From NCBI GenBank assembly GCA_003576905.1, contig QEVG01000005.1, positions 62,001 to 126,000 on the forward strand: a stretch of 64,000 bases of DNA, given 5' to 3'. Position numbers and translations under genes: made by a program. This stretch comes from Planctomycetota bacterium. Lineage in GTDB: Bacteria > Planctomycetota > Phycisphaerae > UBA1845 > UTPLA1. Positions 10,791 through 38,140 of this stretch are shown here, piece by piece. Below the pieces are notes generated by a model. It did not search any database and had not been told where the DNA came from. It saw only the letters and a program-made list of their open reading frames with translations. Position 1 is the stretch's first letter. Each line of letters opens with the position of its first letter.

Positions 10791-12167
10791 ATGTCGCGAT
10801 TTTCACATGGTTCCGTGTGCCGCAGGGCGACGGCTGTTCTCTGTGTTGTCCTCACATTGAATCTCTCGGTGCTTACATCCGGCTGCGGAGTGTCCCCGAC
10901 GCCCGCCGCGGCCGGCGAGAATCTGAGTGTCATTGCATTGACTCCGGATCATCCGCTTGCCCAGGCCCTTCGCGGCACGGCCTTCGAGGGCGCGACCGCG
11001 ATGGAGGTTGACCGCGCCACCGGCGCGTTCCGGTTCATCTTCCCCGGCGCGGATCGAAGCCTGTCCGGCCGCGCCGTCGTGCACGAGGAGCGCTGGGAGA
11101 TTGCCGAGTTCAGTTTTGCCTCCGGCGGGCTCTCGGCGGATATGAAACTCGACCCCGCGACGCGGCAGGTCATTTCGATCGGTACGTCGTTCGGGCACTT
11201 CTGGGAGGCGGCCAAGGAGGATAGGATCACCACGCGGCCGCGCGGCGACACCGAGCTGGACAGTTTCCTCGCGGCGAATTCGGCGCTGATCGCCGTCACA
11301 AATCCAACGGCGAAGAGCAGCTCTTCCTTTGCCCTGCTCATTCCCATCGCCGCGTTCATCATGATCATCTGGGCGATCTGTGCGGACGGCCTGCTGCCGC
11401 TCTGCCCCGGGTTTCCGATTCTCTTCGCAGTGCTCGTGACGATCCTTGGCCTCATGCCGCCGCCGCCGGGCGGAAATGAGCCTCCCCCGGAGAATAATCC
11501 GCCGGTGGCGCAGAACGACGCCTTCACGACTCCGGAAAACACGGTGCTGACCGGAAACGTGCTAAATGACAACGGCGGCGGGGCGGACAGCGATCCGGAC
11601 GGCGACGCGCTTTCGACCAGCCTCCTGGGCGGTACGGCCAACGGCACCGTCGTGCTTCAGCCCAGCGGGGACTTTGCTTATACACCCAACGCGAATTTCG
11701 AAGGGACGGATACCTTTTCCTATTCGCTGTCGGACGGCCGGGGAGCAAGCGACGACGCGACCGTCACGATCACCGTGACGCGCGTGAACCAGCCCCCGGA
11801 CGCACGGGATGATTTCTTCCCGTCCTTCTTCCCCGGTGCGCCGATTCCCATTGAGCCGCTGGCCCCGCGCGGCGGCAAGGGCGGACCGAACATCCTGACC
11901 GGCAATGTCTTCGACGACAACGGAAGCGGCGCGGACAGCGACCCGGACGGCGACACATTCATGGTCGTCGCGGTGGAGGGCTCTGCGGCGAACGTGGGCG
12001 TCCCGACAGCCCTGGCGACCGGCGGCACGGTGACGGTCATGCCGGACGGCTCGTTCGAGTTCTTTACGACCGATACCGACTTCCAGGACGAGACGTTCAC
12101 CTACACCATCGCGGACTCCGGCGGCCTTACCGACACCGCGACGGTGACCATCGACATCATCGACTAG
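10791..12167 (+). CDS. Lipoprotein with tandem cadherin-like (tandem-95 type) repeats
   Basis: 458 residues. The start has GGGGAGGG about seven bases upstream. The lipoprotein signal ends LTSGC (Cys32). Residues 40-165 form an unrecognised N-terminal domain. Then comes a hydrophobic segment of about 45 residues (LLIPIAAFIMIIWAI and FAVLVTILGLMPPPPG), unusual in the middle of a lipoprotein. From about residue 235 there are two bacterial Ig/cadherin-like repeats (NPPVAQNDAF...GNVLNDNG...SDPDGD and a second copy with DSDPDGD), which bind calcium in known families and serve adhesion or spacing. It is probably a surface protein. The central membrane segment may form a hairpin that anchors it a second time. 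Confidence 0.75.
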   Translation: MSRFSHGSVCRRATAVLCVVLTLNLSVLTSGCGVSPTPAAAGENLSVIALTPDHPLAQALRGTAFEGATAMEVDRATGAFRFIFPGADRSLSGRAVVHEERWEIAEFSFASGGLSADMKLDPATRQVISIGTSFGHFWEAAKEDRITTRPRGDTELDSFLAANSALIAVTNPTAKSSSSFALLIPIAAFIMIIWAICADGLLPLCPGFPILFAVLVTILGLMPPPPGGNEPPPENNPPVAQNDAFTTPENTVLTGNVLNDNGGGADSDPDGDALSTSLLGGTANGTVVLQPSGDFAYTPNANFEGTDTFSYSLSDGRGASDDATVTITVTRVNQPPDARDDFFPSFFPGAPIPIEPLAPRGGKGGPNILTGNVFDDNGSGADSDPDGDTFMVVAVEGSAANVGVPTALATGGTVTVMPDGSFEFFTTDTDFQDETFTYTIADSGGLTDTATVTIDIID

Positions 12168-13799: not shown

Positions 13800-14744
13800 C
13801 TAGCTCACGACCTTTGCGGGGGCCGGGGCGGCCTGCGGCGGCGTCCTGGGAATCGGCGGAGCCGTCTCCATGCGACGTATGGCCGGTTCGGGCGCGACGG
13901 CCTCCGCGGCGGGGGCAGCGCCCTCCACGACCTCGGATGGATTGTCACACTGCCCATTCAAAAGGGCAAGTACTTCGTCGGCGAGGGCGAGGTAGTCGAG
14001 GGCGCCGTTGCTGCGCGGGGCATATTCAAAGATGGACTGCCCATAGCTGGGGCTTTCGGCGAGCTTCACGTTTCGGCGGATGCGGGTCTGCATGATGCGG
14101 GCGCTGCGCCAGGGCACCGGGGTCTCCCGTGCGGCATCGAGAAAAGCGGAAAGATCGTCGATGACCTCGCCTGCGAGCCGCGTGCCGGTTTCGTACATGG
14201 AGATGACCATGCCGGCGACGCTGATGCGGGGGTTGATTCGCCTCGAAACAAGGAGGACGGTTTCGAGCAGCTTGCCGACGCCCTGGAGCGCGAGGAAATG
14301 CGGCTGAAGGGGAATGAGCACGCGCGTCGCGGTGGCGAGGGCATTGAGCGTGAGGACGCCGAGCGACGGGGGGCAGTCGATGACGACGATGTCATAGGGC
14401 CAGGCCGCGCCGTACAGGGCGTCGCGAAGGATAACTTCACGGCCGACGACACTGACGAGTTCCATTTCCGCCGCCGCGAGGTCGATCTGCGCCGGAACGA
14501 CGGAGACGTTCGCCGAGCAGGGATGAATCGCGGATTCGAGCGGGAGGTTCGAGGTCAGAACTTCGTAAATGCCGGCGCCTTTCGCGTGGCTGTCGAGGCC
14601 GAGATGCGTGGTGAGATGGCCCTGGGGATCAAGATCGATCAGAAGCATGCGCTTTCCGCGCTCGGCAAGCGCAACGCCGAGGTTGACCGACGTTGCGGTC
14701 TTACCGACGCCGCCCTTCTGATTGATGATGGCGATGCACTCCAT
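13800..14744 (-). CDS. ParA/Soj-type ATPase (orphan)
   Basis: 314 residues. The start at 14744 is chosen because the family begins immediately before the P-loop: IAIINQKGGVGKTA with the deviant Walker A lysine, LLIDLDPQGHLT (Walker A'), VVIDCPPSLG (Walker B). These ATPases form dimers on DNA and move chromosomes, plasmids or other cargo. The usual partner ParB is not next to it. The last 60 residues are rich in Pro, Ala and Glu and look disordered. It could be the chromosomal ParA with a distant parB or a positioning ATPase for another cargo. The final residue of the Walker A motif is Ala instead of the usual second Thr, which is common in the family. Confidence 0.85.
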   Translation of the reverse strand: MECIAIINQKGGVGKTATSVNLGVALAERGKRMLLIDLDPQGHLTTHLGLDSHAKGAGIYEVLTSNLPLESAIHPCSANVSVVPAQIDLAAAEMELVSVVGREVILRDALYGAAWPYDIVVIDCPPSLGVLTLNALATATRVLIPLQPHFLALQGVGKLLETVLLVSRRINPRISVAGMVISMYETGTRLAGEVIDDLSAFLDAARETPVPWRSARIMQTRIRRNVKLAESPSYGQSIFEYAPRSNGALDYLALADEVLALLNGQCDNPSEVVEGAAPAAEAVAPEPAIRRMETAPPIPRTPPQAAPAPAKVVS

Positions 14745-15010
14745 TGCGCGATGCGATCCTTCGAGCCGGCAGGAGATTATCCGGCGGTCGCCGGAAATTA
14801 TAAGCGGGCGGGTGCGGCCGTGGGAAGCGTGCACCGGCGGGATAGTGAGCGGGCTGTGAGTTTCTCAGGTATTGGAGCGGGCAGGCTGTTCGGGAGTTGT
14901 TGAGACCAAAACGCCACGCGGAGGAAGAAACCACCATGGCGGCAGGGGCGTCACGGCTTGGGGGCGGCGGGTGGATCCGGTGACGAAAAGCGGGGAGGTC
15001 TGATCATGCG

Positions 15011-15054
15011 CAAAAAAATATGGAAGGTGCCGCCGTGGCATGAGCACCTTCCAT
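15011..15054 (-). terminator. Intrinsic terminator of the small Lys/Ala-peptide unit
   Basis: An 11-bp perfect stem (15020-15030 with 15044-15054) with a 13-base loop, followed on the minus strand by A and seven T residues (complement of 15012-15018). Textbook rho-independent terminator. Confidence 0.85.
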
Positions 15055-15151
15055 TCGTTTGTTGTCTTCACCGGTGTGAAGACCGGGGCGTCTTATGTGT
15101 TGACGAAACGCGTTGCGTTCGTCGCGACGCCCGCATTTTGGTGGCTGCTAG

Positions 15152-15220
15152 CTACTTCTTCCGCTTCTTCGCGGCCTTCTTGCCAGCCTTCTTGGCGGCT
15201 TTCTTCTTGCGCTTAGCCAT
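15152..15220 (-). CDS. 22-residue Lys/Ala-rich basic peptide
   Basis: A tiny open frame of 22 codons plus TAG, reading MAKRKKKAAKK at its start and KKAAKKRKK at its end; 13 of its 22 residues are Lys and two are Arg. The ribosome-binding site is ideal: AAAGGAGGTGA, with six bases to the ATG. Upstream is a strong promoter and downstream a strong terminator, so it is an independent transcription unit of about 230 nt. The sequence resembles the tails of histone-H1-like and HU-like bacterial proteins; binding to DNA, RNA or the ribosome is an inference. Between stop and terminator lie two more hairpins (15064-15083 and about 15101-15122). The transcript could also act as a structured RNA. Confidence 0.7.
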   Translation of the reverse strand: MAKRKKKAAKKAGKKAAKKRKK

Positions 15221-15246
15221 CAGCGTCACCTCCTTTCATTGAGAAA

Positions 15247-15274
15247 AGTCTAGGGTGCCCTCAAGCTTTGTCAA
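15247..15274 (-). promoter_or_regulatory. Strong promoter of the small basic peptide
   Basis: On the minus strand: TTGACA (15269-15274), 16-bp spacer, TAGACT (15247-15252). The predicted start of transcription is only about 20 bases before the peptide's start codon. A weaker plus-strand TTGTCA overlaps the -35 box and could serve the divergent phosphatase gene. Confidence 0.75.
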
Positions 15275-15327
15275 CAGAAAACTTTACCGGAGCACAATTG
15301 TTTTTTCGGCGCGCGGGGGTGGATATC

Positions 15328-16059
15328 ATGATTCAAATCATGGTCGACGGCACTTCCACACCTCCGACAAGACCTCTGCACGCGCTGATTTTTGATCTCG
15401 ACGGCACGCTCGTCGACTCCCTCGACGACATTTGCAACGCGCTCAATTCCGGTCTGCGCACCATGCACAGGTCACCCGCGCCGCGTGATTCCGTGCGCGA
15501 ATGGGTCGGGGACGGACTGCCGACGTTGTGTCGCCGCGCGTGGCCCGACGCGTCGAACGACGCGCTTTCGCGTCTCACGGAGACGGCGCAGACGGCCTAC
15601 CACGCGGCCTGCGTGGTGCACACCCGTCCGTACGACAACATCTTGAAACTACTGGACTTATTAATCGCGGAAGGAATCGCGCTCGCCGTCCTGTCGAACA
15701 AGCCGCACGAACTTGCGTGCCGGGTTATCGACGAACTCGACCTGCGCCGGTACTTCCAGGACGTGCGCGGTTATGTCAGCGAGGACGAGAAGAAGCCTTC
15801 GCCCCAAGTCGCGCTGAACATGGCGCGGCGGCTGGGTGTTCCGCCCGATCGGGTCGGGCTGGTGGGCGATTCCATCGTGGACATTCTCACGGCGCGGAAC
15901 GGGGGCATGAAATCAATCGCGGTGACATGGGGATTCCAGCCGGCATCGATGCTGGCATCGGAGATGCCGGACTGGCTGGTCTCCCGTCCGATGGAAATTT
16001 TTGTCGTTGCGGCGGGTCGCCGGGCGCAAATGGGTGACTCGGGCGGGGCGGCGCGATGA
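15328..16059 (+). CDS. HAD-family phosphatase, phosphoglycolate-phosphatase-like
   Basis: 243 residues from ATG 15328 (GGGGGTGGA upstream). All HAD motifs are present: motif I LIFDLDGTLVDS near residue 17, motif II AVLSNKP, motif III K in EKKPSPQ, motif IV GLVGDSIVDILTA. The cap is helical (C1 type) as in Gph and PpaX. The likely reaction is removal of phosphate from 2-phosphoglycolate or a similar small phosphate ester. Substrate cannot be told from sequence alone. It is divergent from the small basic peptide unit. Confidence 0.8.
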   Translation: MIQIMVDGTSTPPTRPLHALIFDLDGTLVDSLDDICNALNSGLRTMHRSPAPRDSVREWVGDGLPTLCRRAWPDASNDALSRLTETAQTAYHAACVVHTRPYDNILKLLDLLIAEGIALAVLSNKPHELACRVIDELDLRRYFQDVRGYVSEDEKKPSPQVALNMARRLGVPPDRVGLVGDSIVDILTARNGGMKSIAVTWGFQPASMLASEMPDWLVSRPMEIFVVAAGRRAQMGDSGGAAR

Positions 16060-38067: not shown

Positions 38068-38140
38068 CACCCCCAAGGGGATTCGAACCCCTGTCGCCGA
38101 CATGAAAAGCCGGTGTCCTAGTCCACTAGACGATGGGGGC
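38068..38140 (-). tRNA. tRNA-Glu (anticodon TTC)
   Basis: 73 nt with a full cloverleaf. Acceptor stem GCCCCCA with TGGGGGT (first pair G-U), D-arm TCTAGTGGACTAGGAC, anticodon stem CCGGC/GTCGG with loop TTTTCAT and anticodon TTC, T-arm GGGGTTCGAATCCCC, discriminator G. CCA is not encoded. Six T residues follow directly (38062-38067 on the other strand) and probably end the transcript. A promoter with TTGACA lies about 21-50 bp upstream. Confidence 0.97.

Follow-up and report, generated by a model that had tools for sequence, protein, structure and literature searches.

A short unit on the minus strand of the window

The window, i.e. the whole stretch of 64,000 nucleotides analysed here (a Planctomycetota bacterium, contig QEVG01000005.1, positions 62,001 to 126,000), carries a small unit that, as read directly from the sequence, lies entirely on the minus strand between positions 15274 and 15012 (Table 1). 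Direct reading bore out the near-consensus promoter that had been reported in the initial annotation (TTGACA, a 16-nt spacer and TAGACT), and the transcript probably starts near 15240. The encoded peptide, MAKRKKKAAKKAGKKAAKKRKK, has the 22 codons and two Arg first described, with 12 Lys rather than the 13 originally counted. Seven T residues indeed follow the terminator, whose stem is not the plain 11-bp helix described before: it consists of 12 pairs (one of them U-G) with a 3-nt 5' bulge, topped by two G-C pairs and the loop CACG. The two further hairpins that had been noted were both recovered in the minimum-energy fold, which holds hairpins A and B together with the terminal hairpin (z = -4.85; none of 200 shuffles folds as well). 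Hairpin A is absent from the consensus fold of ten sequences from family f1 (f, G and L are codes for the families, genomes and loci of the compared set), and hairpin B shows changes on both sides at three of its nine consensus pairs in the same ten sequences.

Table 1. Features of the unit, in positions of the window.
Feature	Position	Strand	Basis and remarks
-35 hexamer TTGACA	15269..15274	-	Direct reading and promoter scan
-10 hexamer TAGACT	15247..15252	-	Direct reading and promoter scan; 16-nt spacer from TTGACA
Extended Shine-Dalgarno sequence GAAAGGAGGTGA	15226..15237	-	Complementary over 12 nt to the 3' end of 16S (TCACCTCCTTTC)
ORF MAKRKKKAAKKAGKKAAKKRKK	15152..15220	-	22 codons and stop, ATG at 15220 to TAG at 15152; conserved frame
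Hairpin A, 3' UTR	15086..15132	-	Single-sequence fold only
Hairpin B, GUCUUCAC-ACCG-GUGAAGAC	15064..15083	-	Minimum-energy fold and f1 consensus
Terminal hairpin	15020..15054	-	Fold; 12-bp stem, 3-nt 5' bulge, GC(CACG)GC tip
Apical GCCACGG, nearly invariant	15033..15039	-	Hairpin alignment
Terminator T7 tract	15012..15018	-	Direct reading

A scan of 19.9 kb returned eight promoters including TTGACA-16-TAGACT, compared to a mean of 2.7 in shuffled sequence, and the promoter alone is therefore weak evidence. The original view that the signals exceed chance expectation is supported by the Shine-Dalgarno (SD) sequence and only weakly by the promoter by itself; it is conservation over the class that constitutes the strong evidence that the unit is real. 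By a loose rule, a -35-like string (TTGACN/TTGTCA/TTTACA type) was found 5' of 48 of 54 homologous frames.

The ribosome-binding site had been called ideal, and the sequences agree. In each of the nine genomes read, the window's own included, GGATCACCTCCTTTCTA closes the 16S gene, so that GAAAGGAGGTGA can pair over 12 nt with the presumed exact mature end. The 4.71-Mb genome of the window holds a single AAAGGAGGTGA-N3-9-ATG, with no occurrence of the reversed control pattern. When 60 loci were scored separately (L060 entering with a wrong internal start), 54 had the frame, and the SD match extended over at least 11 nt in 40 of these; complementarity to the 16S 3' end spanned 12–15 nt in 32 and 13 nt or more in 21. 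Locus L193 (G001:C1:3002329) holds a second small basic frame, of 46 aa (MAKNEKSSKKLASLAGKVLKGK...), with GAAAGGAGGTGA just 5' of it, and in L160 (G299:C140) two related frames, of 79 and 81 aa, lie in tandem; their starts resemble those of lipoproteins and their SD regions are nearly identical.

Next to the unit in the window lies a gene for a ParA-type ATPase (13800-14834; AAA_31, with a Pro/Ala-rich tail), whose start lies about 180 nt or more past the terminator. A co-oriented gene of this type follows the unit in the window as well as in 13 of 60 loci, which belong to f1, f12, f13, f15 and f17, and a gene for a HAD phosphatase (Pfam HAD_2 for that of the window) is divergent upstream in 14 f1 loci. 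The adjacency to HAD-phosphatase or ParA genes, proposed at the outset as a way to find relatives, is not constant among the 60 loci: an MnmE-type GTPase gene precedes the unit in seven loci (f2 and f5), eight loci of f21, f23, f25, f28 and f29 have upstream a gene for a nucleotidyltransferase (Pfam CTP_transf_like), which we take to be nadD, and what is presumably a CTP-synthase-like gene lies downstream in six loci of f21, f25, f28 and f29. Since mnmE and parA usually adjoin the replication origin, the ancestral site of the unit was possibly origin-proximal. Further along the window, positions 10791-12167 encode a protein in which bacterial Ig (Big_9) and cadherin-like (Cadherin_4) domains occur.

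Conservation of the lysine-rich frame in Phycisphaerae

When the 321-nt unit was used as a DNA query, genomes of the same family and the same order matched strongly (best non-self E-value 8e-58); at E up to 1 all 61 genomes were matched, many of these matches being short and probably due to chance. Of 20 loci read, 19 shared a common anatomy consisting of an SD sequence, a Lys-rich frame starting with MAK, a hairpin at 64–110 nt from the stop codon and a T tract, where the hairpin either took the form GGAAGGTGCT..GCCACGGC..CACCTTCC or had a stem in which paired positions had changed together; the exception was L022 of G030. The terminal hairpin was cast as a covariance model (R1) from 19 relatives, with the frame left out. 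At E up to 0.01 this model matched 127 of the 298 class genomes, usually a single time in each, and gave no match in the other 171. Upstream of the matched hairpin, a Lys-rich frame was present in 85 of the 104 R1-matched genomes examined. An independent signal pattern, SD followed by ATG-GCN-AAR-[AC][AG] (encoding MAK[K/R]), was found in 103 of the 298 genomes, compared to four for the reversed control, and 74 genomes were common to both sets. Genome G012, from the window's own family, had neither the R1 match nor the SD pattern.

At the level of the phylum, a search of 392 genomes with a model R2 gave ten matches at E up to 0.001, of which four, including that of the window's genome, lie in the class; the six outside it were plain terminators lacking GCCACGG and were rejected as chance. 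The class genomes G269, G123 and G192, with neither frame nor loop, were likewise taken as chance matches. Scanning named genomes with a narrow hairpin pattern returned 23 records, 22 of them titled Planctomycetota, Phycisphaerae, Phycisphaerales or planctomycete; the remaining one, L093 (JANQQE010000024.1), carries the hairpin under the title Alphaproteobacteria, which looks wrong. The pattern had no match in viral contigs. On the strength of these titles the class is read as Phycisphaerae, and the gene is conserved in many of its families.

Protein searches fared poorly. The 22-aa peptide matched two of 61 genomes at E up to 10, one being its own, and a 78-aa homologue matched one of 12 genomes (G062, family f10); as known carriers such as G010 and G043 were missed, both searches are uninformative for absence. 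Gene finders and filtered searches easily drop low-complexity frames of 15–40 codons.

The set examined for frame and loop comprised 133 genomes, all chosen by their hairpin or SD signal: 129 of the 156 in the union of the R1 and SD-pattern sets, and four other relatives. Three of the 27 union genomes outside the set (G299, G252 and G255) were omitted since their pattern match was another type of gene, and the other 24 were not retrieved or not tabulated. A Lys-rich frame was present in 114 of the 133 genomes, in 20 families, with the SD sequence conserved as well, so that the conserved frame anticipated in relatives was found. The frames encode 15–147 aa (median 35) and start with MAK in 103 of 114 cases, with little else fixed. 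Their composition (4917 residues) is 56.6% K, 21.6% A, 8.7% T, 5.0% R and 4.3% V, acidic residues (D+E) amounting to 0.06%. The ratio of synonymous to nonsynonymous change, the other check suggested early on, also came out in favour of a coding frame: pN/pS was 0.16 over 23 pairs in which each frame was used once (232 synonymous and 153 non-synonymous differences), a value that is indicative and biased downwards because the frames were picked for their Lys content, and synonymous sites were well diverged (pS 0.49). L066 (f9), with a 17-aa frame and a hairpin unlike the rest, is a doubtful member and was counted as a frame without the loop. The only Lys-rich frame met in f24, L181 (G273), encodes about 145 aa of nearly perfect KKATR repeats and has an SD sequence.

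When compared to protein families, none of 13 proteins scored at any Pfam cut-off. HC2 (PF07382, cut-off 40 bits) was matched below its cut-off by two of them (best 29.6 and 18 bits) and the extensin model by one, also below cut-off. None of five proteins reached an NCBIfam cut-off, and the one sub-threshold protein was closest to an H1-like family.

The terminal hairpin and its loop

Each of the 12 outer pairs has changed on both sides within an alignment of 56 terminal hairpins. Pairing extends to 97.3% of cells compared to 83.3% in shuffles, none of 500 shuffles reaches any of the measures, and no more than 57% of cells stay paired when the hairpin arms are slid against each other. At the top of the stem, U-G is the most frequent pair, which argues for an RNA structure rather than a DNA palindrome. 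All 56 hairpins have a 5' bulge of 2–6 nt below the tip, and the bulge and many stem columns vary while the tip stays constant: the seven columns of GCCACGG have near-zero entropy, five never varying and two missing once, although this loop identity was partly selected by the model, all R1 training sequences having had GCCACGG. Four control loop motifs formed no hairpin at terminators in the same 133 loci, with 2, 1, 4 and 1 elsewhere.

Genomes found without the hairpin model show how far the loop accompanies the peptide. Among 25 genomes with a Lys-rich frame and no R1 match, the script placed the loop at the terminator in four and elsewhere in two, and GCCACGG was seen by eye just past the stop codon in L157 and L158, beyond the script count; the remaining 17 lack it. 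In all seven f23 genomes searched, the best genome-wide R2 match was the terminator of the gene itself, with another loop. Five f21 genomes without the loop were searched with R2, of which four gave no match and G103 one weak match, and G076 (f19) gave three weak matches genome-wide. As GCCACGG is missing in 19 of 28 f21 and f23 genomes, the loop is not required with the peptide. Conversely, six genomes have two GCCACGG hairpins past the stop codon (L015, L039, L062, L064 and L065 from f8, and L046 from f1), one of the two sitting away from the terminator.

Frame and hairpin also occur apart. The frame together with the loop hairpin at the terminator was found in 82 of the 133 genomes, in 16 families. 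Another 32 genomes have the frame without such a terminal loop (two of these have the loop elsewhere, and L058 and L092 carry one-letter variants of it), 16 have the hairpin without a Lys-rich frame, and three have neither; each part thus occurs without the other. These 16 comprise G030 and every one of the 15 sampled f4 genomes, with the T tract of G050 (f4) not scored by the script. In the f4 genomes, both hairpin arms and GCGCCACGGC are nearly identical and the stretch before the hairpin is poorly conserved, with no Lys-rich frame within 520 nt upstream of the hairpin, where other short frames may exist; only G025 matches the SD and MAK[K/R] pattern, elsewhere in its genome. In G030 (L022, 1402-1470), the hairpin and GAGGTGACG are kept next to a 22-codon GTG frame, (M)AWACGKTGRNMAIIKASRKKQ, which is not Lys-rich and is possibly decaying or re-purposed. 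That one family kept the hairpin after loss of the peptide points to one transcript with two jobs. The initial suggestion of a nucleoid, RNA or ribosome-associated peptide, or of a dual-function RNA, is supported by the conserved frame and, for the RNA half, by this separation, the covariation and the nearly invariant loop; the inconstant HAD and ParA neighbours and the 171 class genomes with no hairpin match speak against it, and the function itself is proposed from sequence.

In the window, the only Rfam match at the gathering score was a tRNA at 38068-38140, and a search at E up to 10 over 14900-15400 gave one match far below the cut-off and outside the unit. No description of the unit was found in the literature searched, whose coverage misses most subscription journals; the unit may be identical to the Rhodopirellula-1 motif of PMC2864571, for which no Rfam number is given in the passage that describes it. 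Pairing of the loop with ribosomal RNA was considered and rejected: CCGTGGC, sought downstream of the 16S gene in seven genomes, occurred once in four of them, and the site in the window's own genome had no homologous stretch in the others; the stretches searched downstream of the 16S gene may lack the 23S gene.

Possible roles of the unit and its relation to known systems

We consider it rather probable that a strongly translated, H1-tail-like peptide and an independently selected 3' RNA element are combined here in a dual-function transcript. Under this model, the unit would be a single-gene unit of Phycisphaerae, transcribed and strongly expressed as an abundant RNA of about 230 nt with two separable products. 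The first would be a heavily translated, unstructured polycation of 15–147 aa made of Lys/Ala(Thr/Val) repeats and comparable to a histone H1 or chlamydial Hc2 tail that stands on its own; it would most likely bind nucleic acid through its charge, coating or compacting the nucleoid or RNA, with a repeat number that drifts and a composition that is kept. The second would be the 3' hairpin, predicted to end transcription and to present the GC(CACG)GC tip above the 5' bulge, most likely for recognition in trans by a protein or RNA, whereby the 3' end would act as a regulatory RNA or regulatory 3' UTR. More tentatively, and with somewhat less than even confidence, we propose an undescribed, deeply conserved dual-function RNA whose tip acts in trans with a partner of its own, which encodes a micro-histone-like polycation and which has become purely non-coding in one family. 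In a bolder form, the basic peptide could conceivably recognise the bulged hairpin of its own mRNA, by analogy with Tat/TAR.

SgrS and RNAIII are dual-function sRNAs that also encode a small protein, and the unit is like them in that one short predicted transcript carries both a small ORF and an RNA part conserved in its own right. In contrast to that type, it is the terminator hairpin that forms this conserved RNA part, and any Hfq site, target or pairing of the unit is at most putative. On the protein side, the peptides share with chlamydial Hc2 (HC2, PF07382; hctB) and Bordetella BpH1 the Lys-rich Ala/Thr/Val repeats and repeat-driven size variation, and with H1-like proteins the Lys-rich repeats and near lack of acidic residues; Hc2 binds both DNA and RNA, its size varying by Lys-rich repeats, according to PMC2848022. 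Unlike Hc2 and BpH1, the peptides are mostly short, have no other domain and are carried with a conserved RNA hairpin. AlgP is much longer than these peptides, and we know of no link between it and structured RNA. It resembles them as an H1-like protein in a bacterium, being described as such for Pseudomonas in PMC9239181. The tip has the same tetraloop letters as the YNMG/UNCG-like c(CACG)g tetraloop but crowns the stem of a bacterial terminator, with a 5' bulge beneath it, and is fixed across families. The c(CACG)g tetraloop has a closing C-G pair.

A title cited in PMC5311481 names a CACG tetraloop UNCG-like, and the invariance of the tip may hence be partly structural. This would fit an ordinary gene for an H1-like polycation with a strong terminator, its CACG tip kept only as a very stable tetraloop, and so would the plain terminator function, the similar stems with other loops in f23 and the other terminators in several f21 genomes. 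We regard this reading as rather unlikely, and stability alone does not explain the bulge below the tip in every aligned hairpin, the second, non-terminal copies of the loop in f8 or the f4 form, in which the hairpin is kept without a Lys-rich frame. With its extreme basic charge, its tiny size and an extended SD string that stands before an ATG once in the genome, the peptide might also associate with ribosomes or RNA, as small basic ribosomal proteins do, and not be a nucleoid protein; the tenfold range of lengths, the low complexity and the near absence of fixed residues beyond MAK make this quite improbable.

A leader peptide with an attenuator controlling the downstream parA is suggested by the position of the ParA-type ATPase gene in the window and 13 further loci, but what follows the unit in most of the 60 loci is a different gene or one in the opposite orientation, and the f4 hairpin comes without a Lys-rich peptide. 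The varied neighbours make a leader peptide unlikely, and we give this explanation very little credence. Similarly, the ability of 32 of 54 members to pair with the 16S 3' end over 12–15 nt could mean that a non-coding RNA captures 30S subunits or 16S rRNA through its extended SD sequence and that the frame is incidental; the purifying selection on amino acids and the open frames of very different length leave this scarcely credible.

The RNA and signal patterns found carriers that the protein search missed, and a gene retained in many families within a bacterial class could go unnoticed by gene finders and filtered searches. PMC5397173 places Planctomycetes among the phyla in which SD genes make up a small fraction; should the dual role hold, Planctomycetota, low in such genes, would gain a case of very long SD pairing. 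The RNA-only or peptide-only families would then be natural experiments that separate the two functions.
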